The translations under genes were made by a program, and so were the position numbers. The notes under the pieces are model-generated. The model ran no database searches and was not told the DNA's origin. It saw only the letters and a list, made by a program, of their open reading frames with translations. 61,620 bases of DNA from Minisyncoccota bacterium (lineage in GTDB: Bacteria; Patescibacteriota; Microgenomatia; UBA1400; PJMF01), in assembly GCA_003173865.1 (NCBI GenBank), contig PJMF01000009.1, positions 1 through 61,620 of the forward strand, written 5' to 3'. Shown piece by piece: positions 31,934 to 57,045 of this stretch; position 1 is the first letter of the stretch, and every line of letters starts with the position of its first letter.

Positions 31934-33021
31934 GGGTTAAGTGAAATTTTGCGTTGGTTTTTGGGATTGTTTTTGTTTGAGAAACGCGGCAATAATTTGT
32001 CGTCGTTGAAAGAGTGTGGTGCCACGATGATGGTCGATGTGCCGTTGAATTTGGGCGTTGATGCCACCTTCAATTCGGTTTGAGGTGTTGGGAATTTCTG
32101 GAAAACGAATGTACTGAAACAGGTTGGGGAAGGCATGTTTGAGATGTGAATGTGCCGCATGCAACCGACCGTGCGTGTAATGCCATTTCTGACGTCCAGT
32201 AGGTGTTCGTGAGTCTTGGTACGTTTTCTCTCTGAGAAATGTGTTGTATGCAACGTACCAGTGTTTGTATCTCATGAGCCAGATTTTCAGATCGTTCTGC
32301 GTTCTCACCATCACAATATCACCGACCAGTGCTTTGAATGTTTGTGCGGCGAGGGTTTCAGGATGTTTGGTGAGCAAGATATTGACTTGGTGAATGACAT
32401 GAAACTGACAGCGTTGAATGATGATTCCTGGCCATCGCAGTTTAATCGCTTTGATCATGCCTTTTTGACCATCACAGACAACTGCAAAAGGGAATACAGA
32501 AATCTTTTCACACAGTTCCAACCACGTCAAAAAGTTTTCTGCATACGTAAACAGCCAATTCACGACGTCATTTTTTGTGGATTGGGCAATCAGTACGGTT
32601 GCTCCATACTGCACGTAATACCCATCAATGATGAAAATTTCATCAGCTCCAGAAATACTGTGAGGAAGAATTTCTTGCTCTCGAAATGGTGCAAACCAGT
32701 TATCCAGTGTTCTGCGAGTGACCGCATATTTCTGTGCAAAATCTGAAAGGGTCAGTTTACTCAGTAACCAACTCTCGTACATGTGCCGATGACTTTTTTC
32801 GACGAGATCATCTCTTGTTCTTGTCGTACTTTTCTGACAGGTGAAGCACCGATGTCGTTGTGACCCATTCCTGTTTTTTCCCCACCGTTGCATTGCAGAG
32901 CCGCAGACTGAACATCGTTTTTTTTACGCATTTAATCTCCAAACACATTAATGTGCTGAGATTATATGCTACCAATCAATCTAAAGTGAGAAAAAAACCA
33001 ACGCAAAATTTCACTTAACCC
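31934..33021. mobile_element. Complete insertion sequence, 1088 bp, IS256-superfamily/IS1249-like transposase
   Basis: Perfect 29-bp TIRs GGGTTAAGTGAAATTTTGCGTTGGTTTTT; 8-bp TSD GAAAATAT at 31926-31933 and 33022-33029. Confidence 0.9.
31937..32893 (-). CDS. Transposase (mutator-type DDE)
   Basis: 'FIIDGYYVQYG', 'VCDGQKGMIKAIKLRWPGIIIQRCQFHVIHQVN', 'NRIEGGINAQIQRH'; stop codon lies in the TIR. N-terminus probably extends upstream by frameshift (see findings). Confidence 0.85.
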   Translation of the reverse strand: MQRWGKNRNGSQRHRCFTCQKSTTRTRDDLVEKSHRHMYESWLLSKLTLSDFAQKYAVTRRTLDNWFAPFREQEILPHSISGADEIFIIDGYYVQYGATVLIAQSTKNDVVNWLFTYAENFLTWLELCEKISVFPFAVVCDGQKGMIKAIKLRWPGIIIQRCQFHVIHQVNILLTKHPETLAAQTFKALVGDIVMVRTQNDLKIWLMRYKHWYVAYNTFLREKTYQDSRTPTGRQKWHYTHGRLHAAHSHLKHAFPNLFQYIRFPEIPNTSNRIEGGINAQIQRHIDHHRGTTLFQRRQIIAAFLKQKQSQKPTQNFT

Positions 33022-33594: not shown

Positions 33595-36099
33595 CTACTG
33601 CCCCACACTGACACCATCTAAAATTTGGTCGCGGTTATCGCCTGTTGAATCATATAGCTGAGTATAAAATTGCGAAGGACTACATGCGACAGTTGGTTCG
33701 GTGCCTTTGACAAATAATTCTTCGCTGACACTTGGACAGCCACGACATGGAAGCGTGTTCGTGCTACTACATACTTTCACTTTGACTAATCCGTCGGGAG
33801 TTGGGAAGACATGTGGTTTGGCATCGTCCAACTGAGTACGGATAATCTTATTCCAAATTGGTGATGCACCAGTAATACCAGAAGCAACGTAACTCATTGG
33901 TTTGCCGTCGTTGTTACCGACCCACACGGCTACTAAACGATCTTCGGTGTAACCAATTGCCCAGTTATCCTTCAAGTTGTTGGTTGTACCGGTTTTGACT
34001 GCAACTTGTTGTTTTGGAATGTATAAGACTGATTGTGGGCCGAATGCGGGTGTGCGGGCGTTATTGTCAGATAAAATATCCGTGATTTGATAGGCCACGC
34101 GGGAATCTAATGTACGAGTACGTTGACAGTCAGTGTTATCAAGTGCGCAGGAATTATGATACAGAACTTCACCTTTTGCGTTTTTGACTTCTAGAAGAGA
34201 GTTGAGTGGCACTGTTTCACCATAGTTGGCAAATGTGCCGTAAACCTGGGCTAAATCGACCATTAACACCTCACCACTTCCTAATGTAAGCGAAAGACCA
34301 AACCGCTTGCGATCTTTCCAAGTAGTAATTCCCATTTGTTCACCTTTATCAATCATGTTGGAGATACCAACTTCGGCTAATGTTTTTACTGCTGGGATGT
34401 TGAAAGATGAAGCGAGAGCGGTGCGCAAAGTAACTAACCCGTGAAACTTTCCATCGTAGTTTTTGGGTGTATATGGCGCCGATCCGGGTGTACTAAATGT
34501 GGTTGGCTCATCAAGAATCGTTGAAGAAGGGTTTTTACCATTACTTAAGGCCAGTGAATAGGTCAATGGCTTAATCGAGGAACCTGGTTGCCGAGGTCGG
34601 GTGGTGACATTGACTTGTCCGTCGTTTGCGAAGTCAAAGTAATTCTTACTTCCAATCATGGCTAAGATTTCACCGGTTTTGGGATTGGTTACAAGTGCTG
34701 CTCCGTTATGAATATTTAAACGAGCTAAGTTATTGACTTCATTTGTAACGATCTGTTGCGCTTGATCTTGTGTGTCGAGATCTAATGTTGTGCGTACTTC
34801 TAAACCGCCTTGATTGACAACATCTTCACCGTATTGTTTTTCTAACATATTTTTGACATACATCACAAAGTGTGGTGCTTTAATATCAGTCATATCTTGA
34901 CGGAAAGTAAGTGTTTCGCTGCGTGCTTTTTGGGCTTGTTCGGCAGTAATGTACTTATCTTCCACCATACGCTGTAACACTTCATGTTGGCGCACATATG
35001 CATATTCTGGCGTCGCACCAAATGGGGAGTAGGCAGAGGGAGCAGCTGGTAATCCAGCTAAAAATGCACTTTCGGCTAAATCAAGTTTACGAACCGATTT
35101 TCCAAAGTAGCGTTGTGAGGCTTCTTCAACACCGTACGTTGAGCCACCATATCCAACTTCATTAAAGTACATCTCTAAAATTTCGTCCTTTGAGTAGGTG
35201 CCTTCCATCATGAATGACAACACAACTTCTCGAATTTTACGCTTGAGTGTTTTTTCTGGAGTCAGTAACGTGTTTTTGACGAGTTGTTGGGTGATCGTTG
35301 AACCACCTTGTAGGCGATCACTTTGAGTGTTGGATACAAGGGCACGAAAAATGCCACGAATTGAAATCCCTCGATGCGAGTAAAAATTTCTGTCTTCAAT
35401 CGAGACAGTTGCATGAATCAAGTCAGCTGGCACTTGTGAGAGAGGAATTAAGGTGCGATTTTCATCTTTGAAAATCCGATACAGTAACTTGCCATTTCGG
35501 TCATAAATTTTGGTGGTTAAGTTTTGTTTGCGAGTGGTCAAGTCAGCGACAGAAGGCAAATCTTTAAACACAATGTCATACGTTTCATAGGCACCAAACA
35601 AGATTACGGCACTGGTTAATAAAGAAAGTAAGATCGCCCAAAAATGAAAACGAAGTAAATACTGGAAGGGCCAAAAAATTTCAGCATGGAAAAATTTCCG
35701 TACGCTTTTAATGAGTCGTTTAAAAAACCCTACAATTTTTGGGTTCTTGCGCTTTTTGCGTATAAGCTTTTTTTTTGTTTTTTTCTTTAGCTTGTTCAGT
35801 ACGTTACTTAAACGTGTTCCCATGAGTAATAGGGAGGGACGAACGTTCTTCAAAGGGCTCTTTGGTACTTTGACCAGAAGCTTAGGAAGCAGTTTTTTCC
35901 ATCGAGAACGAGTCGAAAAAATTACGCCGTTTTTCTTCTTAATCCGAACGGTTTTACTGGGTTTTGCTTTCTTTGTTTTTTTTATGCGGGCAACTGTAAC
36001 TGTTTTGGTTTTGAGGGCTGCTTGAGAAACCGTTTCTTTGCGAGTCTTTTTCGTCTGCTTTACTGCCTTTTTTGCTGTTATAGGTTTTCGCTTAGCCAT
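33595..36099 (-). CDS. Class A penicillin-binding protein (transglycosylase/transpeptidase)
   Basis: GT51 'ATVSIEDRNFYSHRGISIRGIFRA..QGGSTITQQLVKN'; TP 'QPGSSIKPLTY', 'SSFN', 'VKTGTTNN'. Confidence 0.9.
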   Translation of the reverse strand: MAKRKPITAKKAVKQTKKTRKETVSQAALKTKTVTVARIKKTKKAKPSKTVRIKKKNGVIFSTRSRWKKLLPKLLVKVPKSPLKNVRPSLLLMGTRLSNVLNKLKKKTKKKLIRKKRKNPKIVGFFKRLIKSVRKFFHAEIFWPFQYLLRFHFWAILLSLLTSAVILFGAYETYDIVFKDLPSVADLTTRKQNLTTKIYDRNGKLLYRIFKDENRTLIPLSQVPADLIHATVSIEDRNFYSHRGISIRGIFRALVSNTQSDRLQGGSTITQQLVKNTLLTPEKTLKRKIREVVLSFMMEGTYSKDEILEMYFNEVGYGGSTYGVEEASQRYFGKSVRKLDLAESAFLAGLPAAPSAYSPFGATPEYAYVRQHEVLQRMVEDKYITAEQAQKARSETLTFRQDMTDIKAPHFVMYVKNMLEKQYGEDVVNQGGLEVRTTLDLDTQDQAQQIVTNEVNNLARLNIHNGAALVTNPKTGEILAMIGSKNYFDFANDGQVNVTTRPRQPGSSIKPLTYSLALSNGKNPSSTILDEPTTFSTPGSAPYTPKNYDGKFHGLVTLRTALASSFNIPAVKTLAEVGISNMIDKGEQMGITTWKDRKRFGLSLTLGSGEVLMVDLAQVYGTFANYGETVPLNSLLEVKNAKGEVLYHNSCALDNTDCQRTRTLDSRVAYQITDILSDNNARTPAFGPQSVLYIPKQQVAVKTGTTNNLKDNWAIGYTEDRLVAVWVGNNDGKPMSYVASGITGASPIWNKIIRTQLDDAKPHVFPTPDGLVKVKVCSSTNTLPCRGCPSVSEELFVKGTEPTVACSPSQFYTQLYDSTGDNRDQILDGVSVGQ

Positions 36100-36185
36100 G
36101 GGGCGGATTTTACTATATCATCCTATATATTACAAGATAAAATCGACCACATTTATCGCTAAAGAAGAAAAAAACGAAAAACGAG

Positions 36186-37379
36186 TTATAACTTATTTTT
36201 TATCACATCCCATAACTCTCTTGAACTGCCTTCATATCCAAGCGCCCAAATAGCGATTCCGCCTAAATCGAGTTGATTCACTAAATCCAGTTTATACGAC
36301 ATCGACCGAGAGTTTTCGTAGTAAATCAGGTGGATCTCGCGATCCTTTTGGTAAGACAAATAAGGAGAGAGGGCATCGGTGTTCCAGCCTTCTTTAACCG
36401 AGTAAAGATTTTTTTGCAGCAGAAGTGACTGAATCTGATCAAAACCAATTGCTTCGCCTGTATCTGGAAACGTCTTTGCTTGTGAGTCCCGAGAAGTAGT
36501 TTGCCAAGCATAGCCATAAAAAGGAACTCCTAAGACCAATTTTGTATGTGGGACGAAGCTCAAGAAATCTCGCAAATGTTCGGTAATATCGCTATCCCAG
36601 AGTTTTTGTCCTCCAAAAAGTGGTGCGACTGGTCCGGCCGAAATCGAGGATTTACGGTGAAAGTCATAGGCCATCACGATAATGTGATCAACGATTTTGC
36701 TGAGTTGAGGGAGATCCCAAATCCCACGATTTGTGCCAGCCGACGCAAAAACATCAATCGAGAGATGAATATTCTGATACTTGCTATGTATGTGATCTGC
36801 AAGTAGCTGAATAAACTTCGTATAGTCATCGCGCAAATTCGGTGTAACTGTACCAGTGTACTCAATATCAATGTTGATCCCTTGGACGGGATATCCTTGC
36901 AACACGCCATCGAGTGACCGAAGCAATTTTTCTTGAGCAGCGGGAGAAAGCAAAAAGGTTGAAATTTGGTCGGGATCAAACTGCGCCAGGGTGACTTCAA
37001 TTTTACTTCCTCTTTGCGCGGCAGATTGGAAAAGGGACAAGATTTGTTCTGATTGTAGAGTATGGAAACCCATCTCCATTTCGCCTTGTTTATGGTCGAG
37101 AATATCTCCATTTTGATTAAACTCTAAACTAAAATAAGAAAGATGGGTGAGTTCAGGTTGTAAAGTGACTTTATCTTTATTCCAGTACGGTAAAAAACCG
37201 TATACAAGCTTGTGGTCTGTGTGTGTAGGCTGTGATGGTTCACTCAAAAATTGAAAAGTCGTTGATGAAGTAATTGGCGACAGCAGCGGAACTTTACGGA
37301 AAAACCATAATGCTTCTAAGGTCAGTAAAAATAAAATTCCGCTGAGTAAAACTAGAGGACCCACCCAGCGCTGTGTCAT
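36186..37379 (-). CDS. Glycoside hydrolase family 18-like protein, membrane anchored
   Basis: 'VQGINIDIEYTG' catalytic region, 'IIVMAYDFHRKSS', 'LVLGVPFYGYAW', C-terminal 'GGIAIWALGYE'. Confidence 0.85.
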   Translation of the reverse strand: MTQRWVGPLVLLSGILFLLTLEALWFFRKVPLLSPITSSTTFQFLSEPSQPTHTDHKLVYGFLPYWNKDKVTLQPELTHLSYFSLEFNQNGDILDHKQGEMEMGFHTLQSEQILSLFQSAAQRGSKIEVTLAQFDPDQISTFLLSPAAQEKLLRSLDGVLQGYPVQGINIDIEYTGTVTPNLRDDYTKFIQLLADHIHSKYQNIHLSIDVFASAGTNRGIWDLPQLSKIVDHIIVMAYDFHRKSSISAGPVAPLFGGQKLWDSDITEHLRDFLSFVPHTKLVLGVPFYGYAWQTTSRDSQAKTFPDTGEAIGFDQIQSLLLQKNLYSVKEGWNTDALSPYLSYQKDREIHLIYYENSRSMSYKLDLVNQLDLGGIAIWALGYEGSSRELWDVIKNKL

Positions 37380-39814
37380 GGTTGGTTTGGATCATATGGT
37401 GTGTCTTGGATAACGTAATCTGCAGGCACATCATACTTCTCATAGACCGTTTTGCCATCGGGACCAACTGGGCGGGTGCAATCTGCACAATATTGAGGGG
37501 TCAACGGATCACTGTAAATAGTTTTATGTTGTAAACCTAAACCATCAGTGGACTCTCCTGGAGCAGGTGGTAAGCCTGTGTCTGCTTTGATCCACACGTC
37601 TTTTTGGACTACACCGGAGTGAGAAGGTTGAGATTTTTTCCAATAAATTTCTTGCACTGGATTAGGACAACTTTCACCAGTTTGGGCGGGAAAGCCACTT
37701 GCACACACCATTGCCGATGTGACATCGCTCGGTTTATCTTCCCACAGGGGTTGTTGATCTTTCAAAACATACGACATGATGTCATTAAAAATTGGCGCGG
37801 CGCCGGTGATTCCTGAAACAAGTGCACGGTTCATTGGTGTAGAGTCATTATTACCGACCCAAGTAATCGTTAAGAAGTGAGGAGTGAAACCAACTGTCCA
37901 GTTGTCGCGCAGGTCGTTCGTGGTTCCGGTTTTGGTGCTGACAATTTGGTTCGGGATTACTAACTTTGAGTGTGGACCAAACTCAGCCATTCTGGCGTTA
38001 TTATCTTGCATAATGTGTGACACCATGTACGCAGGAGCTCTGTCCATCACACGTGTCAACTCGCCTTTGGATTGAGTCGTGTTATCAGCAGTCAAATCTA
38101 AGAGATCTTGCTTGCGTTGATCAAGGTTCACTGAGTCAAGTAAATTGCCTTTGTAGTCTTCAACGCGCAGAATTGGAGTAAACGGTACCTTCACTCCTTG
38201 GTTTGCGAGTGTCGAAAAGGCTTGGGCTAAATCAATCATCCGAACTTCACCACCACCAAGTGTCAGTGAAAGACCATAATTGGCTGGATTCGTCCAGGAA
38301 GAAATGCCCATCAATTGAGCTTGCTTGATAAATGTTTCGACGCCAATAATACGCAGCGCCTTTACCGCTGGAATATTTAAAGAGTTTCCAAGTGCAAACC
38401 GAATGCTCACCGGACCATGAAAACTGCCATCATAGTTGCGTGGACAGTATGTTTTTTGTCCAGTAACTTCGAAACAAGTCGGGATATCAAGCAAAGTAGT
38501 GCCGGGGTTTAACATGTGCTGCTGAAATGCCGTGGCATACATGAGTGGTTTAATTGATGATCCAGGTTGTCGTTGGGCCAAGGCAACATTCACTTGACCA
38601 TCATTACTGGAATCGAAGTAATCAGTTGATCCAACCATCGATAAAATTTCGCCCGTATCGGGTTTGATTACCATCGCGGCGCCATTACTCACACGAGCAG
38701 AGTGTAATTTTTGGACTTCTGCTGACAGAGAAGCTTGAGCAGCTCGTTGCAGATCGAGATCAAGTGTCGTGTAGACACGCAAGCCACCTTTTTCCACTTT
38801 ATCGACGCCATACTTTGCATAGAGAAGATCGCGTACAAAAAAAACAAAGTGTGGAGCTTGAATGTCAGTTTTAGAAATTGCAAAGTGCATGACTTCTTTT
38901 TCAGCTTGATCTGCTTGCGCGGCAGTAATGTATTTATCCTCAACCATGCGGCGCAACACTTCGTGTTGACGATTTTGTGCTTCCTTCGGATTTGATCCAT
39001 AGGGAGAGTAGGTCGTTGGAGATTGTGGTAATCCAGCTAACATGGCCGCTTCAGCTAAACTTAAATCTTTGGCTGATTTATTAAAGTAATGACGCGAAGC
39101 AGACTCGATGCCTACAGAAGTTCCGCCGTAAGAAATATAGTTAAGGTACATTTCCAAGATTTGTTCTTTACTGTAAAGAACTTCAGTTGCAATTGATAAA
39201 ACTACTTCTTTGATTTTGCGTGTAAAGGAACGCTCCGGAGTAAGAAGCGCATTTTTGACCAGTTGCTGCGTAATTGTTGAACCACCTTCAACACGGGTGC
39301 GCGTAATCGTATTGCGCACTGCGCGCAAAATACCCAAGATGTCAAAACCAAAATGGTGATAAAAATTTTTATCTTCAATTGCAATACTCGCTTGGTAGAC
39401 ATAAGGTGGCAGTGTTGAAATTTTAATCGGAAGCCGATTCTCTTTGCCGAAAACCTCGTAAAGCACTTTACCATTGCGATCAAAAATTTGGGTACTCACC
39501 GCAAAGTTTTCACCTGAGGTTAAATTTTTAGGAGAAGGTAAATCTCTGAGAATGTATAAAAGCCCCACGATGCTGGCTACGACAAGCAAAAGCAAAATCC
39601 AGCGAATCCATGGATTAGTAAATGGGGACAAGAGGATGCGTACAACTCGTCTATGTTGCGAAGTTTTCGCTTTAGTTGGACTTGGCTGCTCAGCAGCATC
39701 AGTTGGATCAACAAGATGTTTCCCAGCAAGAAATTGACGCATACCCTTCAGCGTTGGGCGTGCGGTTTCTTTAGAAAGCTCATTGCGATTACGTGACATA
39801 TTGTATGCGGGCAT
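37376..39814 (-). CDS. Class A penicillin-binding protein, paralogue of 33595-36099
   Basis: 'ASIAIEDKNFYHHFGFDILGILRA..EGGSTITQQLVKNALLTPERS', 'QPGSSIKPLMY', 'STKTGTTND'. Confidence 0.9.
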   Translation of the reverse strand: MPAYNMSRNRNELSKETARPTLKGMRQFLAGKHLVDPTDAAEQPSPTKAKTSQHRRVVRILLSPFTNPWIRWILLLLVVASIVGLLYILRDLPSPKNLTSGENFAVSTQIFDRNGKVLYEVFGKENRLPIKISTLPPYVYQASIAIEDKNFYHHFGFDILGILRAVRNTITRTRVEGGSTITQQLVKNALLTPERSFTRKIKEVVLSIATEVLYSKEQILEMYLNYISYGGTSVGIESASRHYFNKSAKDLSLAEAAMLAGLPQSPTTYSPYGSNPKEAQNRQHEVLRRMVEDKYITAAQADQAEKEVMHFAISKTDIQAPHFVFFVRDLLYAKYGVDKVEKGGLRVYTTLDLDLQRAAQASLSAEVQKLHSARVSNGAAMVIKPDTGEILSMVGSTDYFDSSNDGQVNVALAQRQPGSSIKPLMYATAFQQHMLNPGTTLLDIPTCFEVTGQKTYCPRNYDGSFHGPVSIRFALGNSLNIPAVKALRIIGVETFIKQAQLMGISSWTNPANYGLSLTLGGGEVRMIDLAQAFSTLANQGVKVPFTPILRVEDYKGNLLDSVNLDQRKQDLLDLTADNTTQSKGELTRVMDRAPAYMVSHIMQDNNARMAEFGPHSKLVIPNQIVSTKTGTTNDLRDNWTVGFTPHFLTITWVGNNDSTPMNRALVSGITGAAPIFNDIMSYVLKDQQPLWEDKPSDVTSAMVCASGFPAQTGESCPNPVQEIYWKKSQPSHSGVVQKDVWIKADTGLPPAPGESTDGLGLQHKTIYSDPLTPQYCADCTRPVGPDGKTVYEKYDVPADYVIQDTPYDPNQP

Positions 39815-40339: not shown

Positions 40340-40435
40340 TAGGAATTACACAGGTTTCGAGAGACGACGATTGCACTAGTGTATCTGGAAATACTCACAC
40401 AGCTCTCTACGCTCTCGAAACCTGTGTAATTCCTA
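40340..40435 (+). ncRNA. Conserved long-hairpin RNA element, copy 1
   Basis: Perfect 24-bp arms (40340-40363 / 40412-40435) enclosing core GACGATTGCAC-N14-ATACTCACACAGCTCTC shared with copies 2 and 3. Confidence 0.7.
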
Positions 40436-42948: not shown

Positions 42949-45900
42949 ATGTCTCCATCATCTTCTCTCCCCAAAAAGAAAATGAAGTTTGTCAATCGCA
43001 AACTGACAAAGGGACTCGGTGAAGCCGTTGCCAAGCGCACGATTTTGCGCACAAAGAAAAATGGTGAGCTCGAGACTTGGGAAGATGTGGCCGAGCGCGT
43101 AGCGCGCGGGAACACTTTGTTAATTCCTTCCGATCAACGCAAGCATCGCAAAGAAGAGTTTGAGTTAATGAAAAAGCACATTGCGAATGCGTCGCTTCTG
43201 ATGAGTGGTCGCCATTTACAACACGGTGATGAAACCCAACCAGAGAGAAATATGGAGATTTATACTAATTGCGCAACGGCATCAGCCTCCTATATTTTGT
43301 TTTACTTATTATTAAACGGCTCAGGAGTTGGTCGTGCATATGATGACGACCTTATGGTCACCAACTGGGATAACATGCCAATCATTCGCTGTGTGTTAGA
43401 CGATTCGCACAAAGATTTTGTGTGGGGTGAACATGAAAGTGTACGTGACGCGAAGCACAAATATGCGAAAGGATATTGGTACGAAGTGCCGGATACGCGT
43501 GAAGGTTGGGCGCAAACAATTGAAAAAATTGAGACGATGGCGTACGAGAAAAAATACAAAGATGAAACGTTTATTATCGATTTTTCCCAAGTTCGTCCGC
43601 GTGGATCGATGATCCATGGGATGCAAAATCGCCCGGCTTCTGGACCTCGTCCGTTAATGAACGCGATCGCAAAGCTTTCCACTATTAAAAATGCGGGAAT
43701 GTCTCCTTGGCGCCAAGCTTTATTTATAGACCACTATTTAGCAGAAAGTGTTCTTGTTGGTGGTGCGCGCCGCTCTGCTCGTATTGCTACAAAAACGTGG
43801 ACAGATCCAGAAATTTTTGACTTTATTGCAGTAAAACGCGGTGGCTTTCTATGGTCAGCAAACAACTCGGTCGCAGTTGATGACAAGTTCTGGAAACAAA
43901 AAACAAAACACTCAGAAAAAGTATTAGACGCCGTACTAAAAGCAAGTTATTACGATAAAACTGGTGAACCAGGATTTATTAATCAGCATAAATTTGTGCA
44001 GAACGACGAAGGTTTTGACGGATATTTAGATGGAAAGTTTGCGGAAAGTGCGAAGTACAAACCAGCGCACAAAACCGAGAAGATGCTGTCAGAAATTGCG
44101 CGACATGCATCAACAAAGATTTACACTCAAATTCCCAATCCATGTGGTGAGATTACTTTGAATATGTTGGGTGGCTACTGTGTGATTGCAGATGTGGTGC
44201 CGTACTTTGCGCCCACGGTTGAAGATGCGGAAGAAGCGTTTCGCTTAGCCACTCGCGCCTTAATTCGCGTCAATACGATGGATTGTTTATATAATCGTGA
44301 AGTCAATCGCACTAATCGGATTGGTGTGGGTATGACTGGTCTACATGAGTATGCGTGGAATGCATTTGGGTATGGTTTTCGCGATCTCATTAACGAGAAA
44401 AAAAGTAAAGACTTCTGGATGACCATTGGCCGCTTTAAACGTGCAGTAGTTCAGGAAGCCGAAGAGTACTCAGCTCAATTGGGTGTAGTGACGCCGCATA
44501 CAAACACGACGATCAAACCAGCTGGTTGCCGACCGTGGTACGCATTAACAACCACTAATAAAGGAATTCTAACTTTACAAGAACTTTTTACAAATCATAA
44601 AGAGGGAGAACAATGGAGCATTATGGATGGAGAGTTACAGGCGCTCCAAGACGATGGTAACACAAAACCCCTAACTCGCACATTTGATAATGGCGAAGCA
44701 GAAGTGTTACAAATTCAATTAGCTTATGGATTGACTGTTGAATCAACTAAAAATCATCCATGGTTTGTTAAAGAGCGCGTTTCATCAACGAATAAAAACA
44801 AAACTGTTCCACATAATGATTGGGTCACAACAGAACAAATTCAACCAGGAGATATTTTGGATGTGAAAGTTGGTGTGTATCAAAGTCGTGAACATGCTCT
44901 TCTCAAAACATTGCCAACATTTGCATTACACATGCGAGGCAAATCAAACCCCATTCAGCAGCCGCGAACAATGAATCCCAATTTGGCATGGTTGCTCGGA
45001 TATTTATGGGGAGATGGTGCAATGTCTCCGAGTAAGTATCGTTTGCGATGGTTAGATAGAAACACAGAGAATTTACATAAAGCCAACAAAATTTTTCAAG
45101 AACAATTCGGTATCAGTGGTGAAATTAAACAAGATCCTCACAAAGATGCTCGTTCACTAGAAATTGGCAATATAGAATTATGGCACTGGCTGATTAAAAA
45201 TGATGTTTTTAAGTATCATGCGGCTGTAGTTGATCTCATTCCTCGTGTAATCCGCGAATCATCTCAAGAAGATATCTTAGCATTCATAGCAGGCCTAATT
45301 GATGCTGATGGAGCAGTTGGTTTGGGTAAAACTGATAAAACAGTCACCTTCACTCAAGCAGATTATCGATTTGCACGTCATGTTCAAGATGTTGCATGGA
45401 CAGTAGGACTTGCTTTTGGAATGTCTCACAACACTGTAGGCGAAAATTGGCAACGTAAACGTAAGTCGATGTACCTGCTGACGATGAGTGCGGTTACGAA
45501 GCAAGAAGTGATTCAAACCCTTGTCAAACACAGTAATAAAATGGCGTCAGCAGAAACTTCTGTAGGATCAAAAAGGCTTCCTTGGCGCTGCGATGCGACT
45601 CCACATAAACGTAGGACATTAGGAAAAGTGGAAAGTATAAATAGTTTAGGAATGATGCCTACTTATGACGTAGAAGTTAGTGATAATCATTGGTTCTATG
45701 CTGGAGCTGTGAAATCTCACAACACAACTTCTAAACTGTTCGGTCTCTCCGAAGGCGCCCATTTACCTGCAATGCGTGAGTACATACGCTGGGTGCAATT
45801 TATGAATGAAGATCCGCTGGTTAAAAAATACGAGAAACTAGGCTATCCGACCAAGGAGTTGAAAAGTTACAACGGCACGACCGTGATCGGATTCCCAACT

Positions 45901-46320
45901 CAACCAGAAATTTGTAAGTTGGGCATGAATGGCCAGTTAGTCACTGCGGGTGAGGCTACGCCAGAAGAGCAGTATAAGTGGCTGATGCTTCTAGAAAAAT
46001 ACTGGATTGTTGGTGTTGATGAAAATGGAGAACCACTGGCAGAAGATACGGGGAATCAAGTTTCGTACACACTCAAGTACAATCCGGAAAAGGTAAGCTT
46101 TGCGAAGTTCAAGGAAATGGTGATGAAGTATCAATCGCAAATTAAGTGCTGCAGTGTGATGCCTCAGGTCGATGTGACAGCATATGAATATCAGCCGGAA
46201 GAGCCAGTCACGATCAGTCAGTTTATGCGCGTGCTTCATGAAATTAGCGCAGATGATGCAATTCGCGAAGATATTGATATGGAAACGTTGCAGTGTGCGA
46301 CAGGTGCGTGTCCGATTTGA
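42949..46320 (+). CDS. nrdJ: Class II (B12-dependent) ribonucleoside-triphosphate reductase, intein-containing
   Basis: 'NCATASASYILFYLLLNGSGVGRAYDDD', 'NPCGEITLN', C-terminal 'CATGACPI' redox Cys pair; interrupted by intein. Confidence 0.9.
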   Translation: MSPSSSLPKKKMKFVNRKLTKGLGEAVAKRTILRTKKNGELETWEDVAERVARGNTLLIPSDQRKHRKEEFELMKKHIANASLLMSGRHLQHGDETQPERNMEIYTNCATASASYILFYLLLNGSGVGRAYDDDLMVTNWDNMPIIRCVLDDSHKDFVWGEHESVRDAKHKYAKGYWYEVPDTREGWAQTIEKIETMAYEKKYKDETFIIDFSQVRPRGSMIHGMQNRPASGPRPLMNAIAKLSTIKNAGMSPWRQALFIDHYLAESVLVGGARRSARIATKTWTDPEIFDFIAVKRGGFLWSANNSVAVDDKFWKQKTKHSEKVLDAVLKASYYDKTGEPGFINQHKFVQNDEGFDGYLDGKFAESAKYKPAHKTEKMLSEIARHASTKIYTQIPNPCGEITLNMLGGYCVIADVVPYFAPTVEDAEEAFRLATRALIRVNTMDCLYNREVNRTNRIGVGMTGLHEYAWNAFGYGFRDLINEKKSKDFWMTIGRFKRAVVQEAEEYSAQLGVVTPHTNTTIKPAGCRPWYALTTTNKGILTLQELFTNHKEGEQWSIMDGELQALQDDGNTKPLTRTFDNGEAEVLQIQLAYGLTVESTKNHPWFVKERVSSTNKNKTVPHNDWVTTEQIQPGDILDVKVGVYQSREHALLKTLPTFALHMRGKSNPIQQPRTMNPNLAWLLGYLWGDGAMSPSKYRLRWLDRNTENLHKANKIFQEQFGISGEIKQDPHKDARSLEIGNIELWHWLIKNDVFKYHAAVVDLIPRVIRESSQEDILAFIAGLIDADGAVGLGKTDKTVTFTQADYRFARHVQDVAWTVGLAFGMSHNTVGENWQRKRKSMYLLTMSAVTKQEVIQTLVKHSNKMASAETSVGSKRLPWRCDATPHKRRTLGKVESINSLGMMPTYDVEVSDNHWFYAGAVKSHNTTSKLFGLSEGAHLPAMREYIRWVQFMNEDPLVKKYEKLGYPTKELKSYNGTTVIGFPTQPEICKLGMNGQLVTAGEATPEEQYKWLMLLEKYWIVGVDENGEPLAEDTGNQVSYTLKYNPEKVSFAKFKEMVMKYQSQIKCCSVMPQVDVTAYEYQPEEPVTISQFMRVLHEISADDAIREDIDMETLQCATGACPI
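44527..45723 (+). mobile_element. Intein with LAGLIDADG homing endonuclease (399 aa, in frame)
   Basis: Junctions ..TIKPAG|CRPWYALTTTNKG...DVEVSDNHWFYAGAVKSHN|TTSKLFGL; 'LLGYLWGDGAMS' and 'FIAGLIDADGAVG' motifs; 1197 nt. Confidence 0.95.
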
Positions 46321-46328
46321 TACAGATC

Positions 46329-46430
46329 AGATACACATACTCCAGAAAGACGAGATCGCGCCAGAGTTGGTCGTAGATACTCACGCAGCTCTCAAGTCTT
46401 TCTTTCGTATGTGTATCTTCTCGATTTTTT
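46329..46430 (+). ncRNA. Conserved long-hairpin RNA element, copy 2, with T6 tail
   Basis: AGATACACATAC/GTATGTGTATCT and GAAAGAC/GTCTTTC arms; core GAGATCGCGCC...GATACTCACGCAGCTCTCAA; TTTTTT at 46425-46430. Confidence 0.7.
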
Positions 46431-54677: not shown

Positions 54678-56379
<1,702 letters not shown>

Positions 56380-56384
56380 TCTAC

Positions 56385-56476
56385 GAAGGTAGACTCACTT
56401 CGAAAAGACGAGATCGCACCGAAGTCTTCGAAGATACTCACACAGCGCTCAAGTCTTTTCTCAGTGAGCTACCTTC
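56385..56476 (+). ncRNA. Conserved long-hairpin RNA element, copy 3 (groEL 3' UTR)
   Basis: GAAGGTAG/CTACCTTC, CTCACT/AGTGAG and GAAAAGAC/GTCTTTTC arms; core GAGATCGCACC...GATACTCACACAGCGCTCAA. Confidence 0.7.
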
Positions 56477-56493
56477 TTATTAAGAAGTTAATG

Positions 56494-56526
56494 AAAAACT
56501 CCTCCGCGAAAGTGGGGGAGTTTTTT
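56494..56526 (+). terminator. Intrinsic terminator after groEL/RNA element
   Basis: AAAACTCCTCCGCGAAAGTGGGGGAGTTTTTT. Confidence 0.85.
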
Positions 56527-56544
56527 AATGTTAAAATAAAAAAG

Positions 56545-57045
56545 ATGAAAACGACTGACAATCAACAAGAAATGTTTATTGTGGTTGATGAGAATGACAT
56601 GGTACTTGGATATAAAACGCGTTACGAATGCCATCACGACAAGACGCTTATTCATCGTTCGGCAGGTTTGGTGATCTTCAATGATCGCGGAGAAATTTTA
56701 TTACAAAAAAGAAGTCTTACCAAAGATACATATCCTGGTTTCTACACGCTTTCCGCCAGTGGGCATGTGAATAAGGGAGAAACTCCCGCAGAAGCAATCA
56801 CCAGGGAAGCAATCGAAGAAATTGGAGCTCACATTCAACCGGAATTCAAAATGAAGTTTTTATATGAAGATCCCAGAGAGACAGAAATAGATTATTTGTT
56901 TACTACTCAGCACGACGGCCCCTTTCTGCCCAATCCTTTAGAAGTGGAGGAAGTTGCGTTTTTTTCGCTTGAAGAAGTAAAGCAAATGAAAGACGTGCTT
57001 ACTCCTGGAGCATTGTTTTCTCTAGAAAAATTGTCTTTACTATAA
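56545..57045 (+). CDS. NUDIX hydrolase (YfcD/IPP-isomerase-like)
   Basis: 'GHVNKGETPAEAITREAIEEIG' Nudix box; 'LLQKRSLTKDTYPGFYTLSASGHV'. Confidence 0.85.
   Translation: MKTTDNQQEMFIVVDENDMVLGYKTRYECHHDKTLIHRSAGLVIFNDRGEILLQKRSLTKDTYPGFYTLSASGHVNKGETPAEAITREAIEEIGAHIQPEFKMKFLYEDPRETEIDYLFTTQHDGPFLPNPLEVEEVAFFSLEEVKQMKDVLTPGALFSLEKLSLL

Follow-up and report, generated by a model that had tools for sequence, protein, structure and literature searches.

Dispersed hairpin repeats with copy-specific complementary arms, mostly placed just past stop codons, in a Minisyncoccota genome

Most of what is known about small hairpin repeats comes from cultured Proteobacteria and Firmicutes. Integron attC sites, which lie in the sense orientation directly behind stop codons, keep structure over sequence. 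Copies of the enterobacterial ERIC element (IRU, RU-1; 127 bp) are alike in sequence along their whole length and have short terminal inverted repeats (TIRs). ERIC elements are transcribed with their neighbours, an effect on mRNA stability has been proposed, their orientation is reported to be crucial, and their transcripts, together with those of the Neisseria repeat NEMIS (Correia repeat enclosed element, 107/155 bp), are proposed targets of RNase III/RNase E (PMC2229807). NEMIS have 24-bp TIRs with target duplications (PMC2229807), and a NEMIS hairpin in transcripts with RNase III binding or cleavage is reported (PMC2229807; PMC2649163). REPs are 20-40 bp long and carry GTAG/CGTC tags (PMC3733652). 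Their partner is a RAYT transposase.

The stretch of DNA dealt with here (the window, all 61,620 nt of contig PJMF01000009.1) belongs to a draft genome, G000, of 1.2 Mb and 95% completeness, whose gene calls are mechanical ORFs. Three copies of a repeat lie in it (Table 1), and an earlier note, made from the letters alone, had seen in the third of these three stacked stems, a core common to all three copies and a hairpin additional to the transcription terminator; folding and alignment bear out each of these points. Copy 3, 92 nt long and beginning 5 nt past the groEL stop, scores 93.8 bits (E 4e-19) with a covariance model of the family. Its outer stem of 8 bp (56385-56392 with 56469-56476) is separated by a bulged A56393 from a middle stem of 6 bp (56394-56399 with 56463-56468), and a 2x2 internal loop leads on to the inner stem of 8 bp (56402-56409 with 56453-56460). 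Together with the terminator the predicted fold reaches -62.6 kcal/mol, where shuffled sequences average -35.8 (z -7.25) and 0 of 200 are as stable. The core shared by the window copies reads GATNGCRC...ATACTCACRCAGC. The bases after 56476 read TTATTAAGAAG, with no T-tract directly after the stem, and the separate terminator-like hairpin begins after a gap of 15 nt; its absence from a consensus terminator scan is due to the T-run having been counted within the stem. The gene neighbours of the three copies (groEL, nrdJ and an uncharacterised ORF upstream of copy 1) are unrelated, again as the earlier note had it.

Table 1. Features of the window that bear on the repeat (positions in the window)
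Feature	Position	Strand	Basis or remark
Copy 1 of the repeat	40340..40435	+	perfect 24-bp arms; 5 nt past upstream ORF stop (stop ends 40334)
Copy 2 of the repeat	46329..46418	+	8 nt past nrdJ ORF stop (stop ends 46320)
groEL (542 aa, TAG stop)	54751..56379	+	gene call
Copy 3 of the repeat (complete hairpin)	56385..56476	+	spacer 3' of groEL; fold and covariance-model match
Copy 3, 5' arm	56385..56409	+	fold; 8 + bulged A + 6 + 2-nt loop + 8
Copy 3, conserved core GAGATCGCACC...GATACTCACACAGCGCTCAA	56410..56452	+	alignments among copies
Copy 3, 3' arm	56453..56476	+	fold
Intrinsic-terminator-like 16-bp hairpin ending T6	56492..56527	+	fold; position matches groEL terminators of relatives
ORF downstream of copy 3, NUDIX-like (judged by eye)	56545..57045	+	ORF list

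Some other features of the window deserve a mention in their own right. The nrdJ ORF (L004 3-1475, window about 44848-46320) has a LAGLIDADG_3 domain (Pfam 2.8e-11), which suggests an intein. A 29-nt inverted repeat of 100% complementarity (31934-31962 / 32993-33021, 1030 nt apart) possibly represents insertion-sequence ends or an invertible segment, and several direct repeats spaced about 3.94-3.98 kb in 33894-39288 suggest that a gene or a pair of genes has been duplicated in tandem.

Genome-wide, a covariance model built from four copies (R1) finds nine full copies in G000, and a second built from all nine (R2) recovers the same nine (E 1e-16 to 2e-19) and adds a tenth that lacks the core. 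Full copies are about 90-100 nt, and the folded intervals of the ten, 66-101 nt, each form one single hairpin; multi-copy, intergenic and with one long stem-loop, the family has these features of ERIC/NEMIS-type repeats, which are of the order of 100-200 bp. The stems, 23-27 bp and near-perfect, carry the conserved core at the apex. In the alignments conservation of the core is far above that of the arms, and the outer arm ends are unlike between copies except within one subfamily. Two classes (A: L001-L004; B: L005, L006, L007, L017 and L019) have cores differing by one inserted base. L005, L017 and L019 have arm sequence in common with the core-less L021, which is what multiplication of a repeat would produce. 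Decoding of the core as protein was considered and rejected: L005 has an in-frame stop there, and in the aligned sequences the class A copies differ in length by 1 nt, which also interrupts the frame.

L021 itself (G000:C26:3348-3413, minus strand) has the L005/L017/L019 arms around a tiny loop. It precedes an adenosine-deaminase-like gene, in whose leader it follows a stretch that is rich in T, possibly structured and without an Rfam match. Two further hairpins of the genome are of another kind. L069 (G000:C11:134-268, minus strand), to which R2 gives no match, starts right behind a stop codon and pairs perfectly over 25 bp around an 85-nt loop. L056 6471-6620 (G000:C8:46471-46620, minus strand) is a 29-bp inverted repeat enclosing a tRNA-like 3' half (GGTTCGAATCCCGC), and its sequence suggests that part of a tRNA was duplicated in inverted orientation.

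Placement of the copies is not random, which answers the genome-wide test that the earlier note had proposed. Seven of the ten begin 0-13 nt past a same-strand stop codon and none follows an antisense stop. With intergenic position and orientation drawn at random over 397 kb of G000, and a distance of 0-15 nt allowed, 6.3% would be expected in same-strand post-stop positions (P=3.9e-7 for seven of ten; copy numbers are small). The genes upstream of the seven are groEL, mreB, nrdJ, that for a thioredoxin-reductase-like pyridine-nucleotide oxidoreductase, a pilin-like gene and two uncharacterised ones. Weak Pfam matches in neighbouring ORFs (RnlA, a neurotoxin receptor-binding fold) are low-scoring domain resemblances. 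Five copies are between codirectional genes, and most copies are without a T-tract at the stem base. The remaining three (L017, L019 and L021) are in 5' leaders, sense to the downstream gene, so the description of the repeat as a 3' UTR element is apt between the groEL stop and its terminator and does not extend to these. The hairpin of L006 and the start region of a pilin-like ORF overlap.

The second main feature is that the arms change together. In the nine-copy alignment double-sided changes are found in 13 of 23 pairs, paired cells amount to 90.3% against 71.2% in shuffles, and a covariation score of 0.507 compares with 0.137 for shuffles and no more than 0.148 for slid controls. Arm pairing in the family is under selection. 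What the pairing is selected as is another matter, since ordinary RNA helices have noticeably more G-U pairs than are present here: interior pairs departing from Watson-Crick in the sense arms of the ten copies include one G-U and six A-C mismatches, and on folding the antisense strand is the more stable in 10 of 10 copies. With G-U no commoner than A-C, and the antisense strand folding better, the RNA form is not treated as proven; a DNA hairpin, templated correction of one arm by the other, or selection for a perfect duplex would each fit the arm data. Copying of arms from host flanks was also considered. One comparison, groEL with its counterpart in G032, was suggestive (Smith-Waterman score 24, 0.7% of the null), and the idea was dismissed because one such value in 23 comparisons is allowed by chance.

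Inheritance as a groESL feature does not survive comparison with relatives. The closest of these, G032 (84% GroEL identity), has no copy behind groEL, in most related genomes the spacer 3' of groEL contains a terminator only, the orthologous loci examined in relatives are without copies, and R2 gives no significant match in 384 other genomes of the class. With the G032 spacer empty and those genomes without a match, the repeat is, on sequence comparison, a lineage-specific dispersed palindrome and no old groESL control element. A single match in G031 (L020, just behind an HU-like gene; 24 bits) is not claimed as a member, its E of 0.014 being for one genome among 49. No Rfam family is above the gathering threshold, the only matches being weak ones, below threshold, to miRNA precursors. 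Exact-pattern scans of genome and viral contigs gave nothing beyond a single coding match, due to chance, in a Clostridia MAG, and phages and plasmids gave no matches to the repeat pattern. A literature search, limited to the terms tried and so no proof of absence, found no description of such repeats.

A sister genus, g4, provides a parallel. The groEL spacer in three of its genomes (G003, G035, G062) has a different large hairpin. A de novo search for hairpins in 360 kb of G003, followed by a covariance model (R3), revealed a second family of about 165 nt. Its 75 matches are spread over 8 of 8 g4 genomes, and 41 others have none. Thirteen of the 30 loci read begin at most 15 nt past a same-strand stop, none follows an antisense stop and none is inside a gene; one, L150, is cut by a contig end and had its placement judged from its groEL context. 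Judged by eye, the genes upstream encode GroEL, DnaJ, HrcA, NrdR, GreA and RuvA, among others, and copies L148, L153, L154 and L176 are behind groEL, dnaJ and hrcA. Enrichment at heat-shock genes is possible, groEL being a biased sample. The outer arms are again copy-specific and near-perfect, with 646 Watson-Crick, 12 G-U and 23 A-C pairs. At one orthologous locus in two g4 genomes (L157/L171) five arm pairs are double-changed and still Watson-Crick, the arms otherwise differing from perfection by one G-U and one mismatch. The genes on either side of this locus diverge, and it lies immediately ahead of a peptidyl-tRNA-hydrolase-like (pth-like) gene, near a TATATA stretch, where it is possibly the very 5' end of the pth-like transcript. 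The two families are alike in having a conserved core, copy-specific complementary outer arms and sense, post-stop copies, including behind groEL; they differ in length, the g4 repeat being the longer, and in core. Homology between them, for which a CAGCUC..UCAA stretch seen by eye in both might be invoked, was rejected, as neither covariance model finds the other family. Yet other hairpins are behind groEL in genus g16 and in G069. Those in g16 (L042, L048) are large, with long near-perfect outer stems, L048 apparently comprising two tandem hairpins, both with CTTCAAGGTA.CTTGTC, and they are a possible third family.

Placement, orientation, the lack of a termination signal and paired evolution are together most simply fitted by a co-transcribed processing or decay hairpin. 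The repeat would then be a dispersed, lineage-specific palindrome kept for its fold, and acting as an RNA hairpin that tunes how stable the upstream and downstream mRNA is, a reading to which a probability of roughly 0.45 is given. The hairpin, in transcribed spacers, would be co-transcribed with the upstream gene; it does not terminate transcription. At a spacing of 0-13 nt a terminating ribosome would cover the stem base. Its departure on termination would let the stem close, so that folding would be timed by termination, and the closed stem could serve as a double-stranded site for processing of the RNase III type, as a block to 3'-to-5' decay, or as both, much as has been proposed for NEMIS and ERIC transcripts (PMC2229807). 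Several findings sit uneasily with a co-transcribed hairpin. G-U pairs are not above A-C in the sense arms of either family, and their scarcity together with the better antisense fold counts against ordinary selection of an RNA stem. The emptiness of orthologous loci in relatives, the three copies in 5' leaders and the overlap of L006 with an ORF start are also against it.

The scarcity of G-U pairs and the repeat-like dispersal give weight to the main rival of RNA processing, a selfish element moving as a single-stranded DNA hairpin, whose pairing would be that of a transposition substrate or would be re-perfected by hairpin-templated correction, and whose post-stop copies would be the ones surviving at the least harmful sites. 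Arms that are Watson-Crick-perfect without preference for G-U, a subfamily with common arms that includes a core-less copy, and the very patchy occurrence are what it would lead one to expect. Positive GC skew on the element strand in nine of ten copies is consistent with use of one replication strand, but for the same reason a replication-strand bias is inseparable from gene orientation in G000 alone, and one second-family copy tracks its gene and not the skew. In addition the 95%-complete genome has no match to the Y1 transposase PF01797 and no known partner enzyme, the arms vary between copies in a way that transposase-recognised ends do not, and a sense-after-stop bias of 7:0 and 13:0 in two unrelated families is not what one would predict if a near-palindrome inserted wherever it did no harm. 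This explanation, of movement as DNA and survival at harmless sites, is considered rather unlikely, and the mode of spread, no less than transcription, nuclease action and an effect on expression, is something we infer. The choice that the earlier note set up between an RNA motif and a REP/MITE-like repeat is nevertheless a false one, the pairing being selected and the dispersal, with its shared-arm subfamily and core-less copy, being that of a repeat.

A cis-regulatory or protein-binding RNA motif, 3' UTR-derived small RNAs included, would have the core as its ligand, protein or seed site. The much better conservation of the core than of the arms, the sense orientation and the presence of copies in 5' leaders as well are in keeping with this, but the adjoining genes are unrelated, Rfam has no match, orthologous sites in relatives are without the motif and one copy is entirely without the core. 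The explanation is distinctly doubtful, and the small-RNA or ligand-site role that the earlier note had put forward among others has not been borne out. Very improbable indeed is a role as part of a tandem terminator, since despite the closeness to the stop codon there is no T-tract at the base, copy 3 has a separate canonical terminator after it and five copies are inside codirectional gene runs, which already contradicts it. Just as improbable is a recombination site of the attC kind, as likeness in placement, size and conservation of structure over sequence is offset by dispersal of the G000 copies behind single housekeeping genes and by the conserved part being the apex, with no conserved R boxes at outer ends that have no common sequence, the reverse of attC.

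Two unrelated families, in an apparently reduced-genome candidate-phylum lineage, agree in their design and in their address (sense, 0-15 nt post-stop). They may be instances of a class of hairpin repeats, recurrent in this bacterial family and so far without a name, with unrelated, genus-specific cores, copy-specific complementary arms, sense post-stop placement (repeatedly at groEL) and one common mechanism, an idea that is tentative and on balance doubted. If it is true, that mechanism could be insertion or arm copying coupled to termination of transcription or translation, or a function at mRNA ends. The question raised is whether RNA ends and processing are the reason that pairing is kept, or whether the life cycle of a DNA hairpin maintains it.

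In relation to described repeats, the one in G000 is not a REP, is not known to Rfam and is not a terminator. With REP/REPIN it shares being a dispersed extragenic palindrome, but it is about 90 bp long and in a genome without a Y1 transposase. NEMIS is similar in combining an inverted repeat with a conserved core, and differs in that the arm sequences of the G000 repeat are unconserved; target duplications were not seen by eye in the flanks read. The likeness to ERIC (PMC2229807) is in intergenic location, one long hairpin, the importance of orientation and, on the RNA reading, transcription with the neighbours and a proposed effect on mRNA stability. No sequence relation to ERIC was found, and in the G000 repeat only the core is conserved, the arms are copy-specific but complementary and the copies hug stop codons. 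Lacking the conserved terminal inverted repeats by which ERIC and NEMIS are defined, the G000 repeat may yet, by analogy, resemble them in action.
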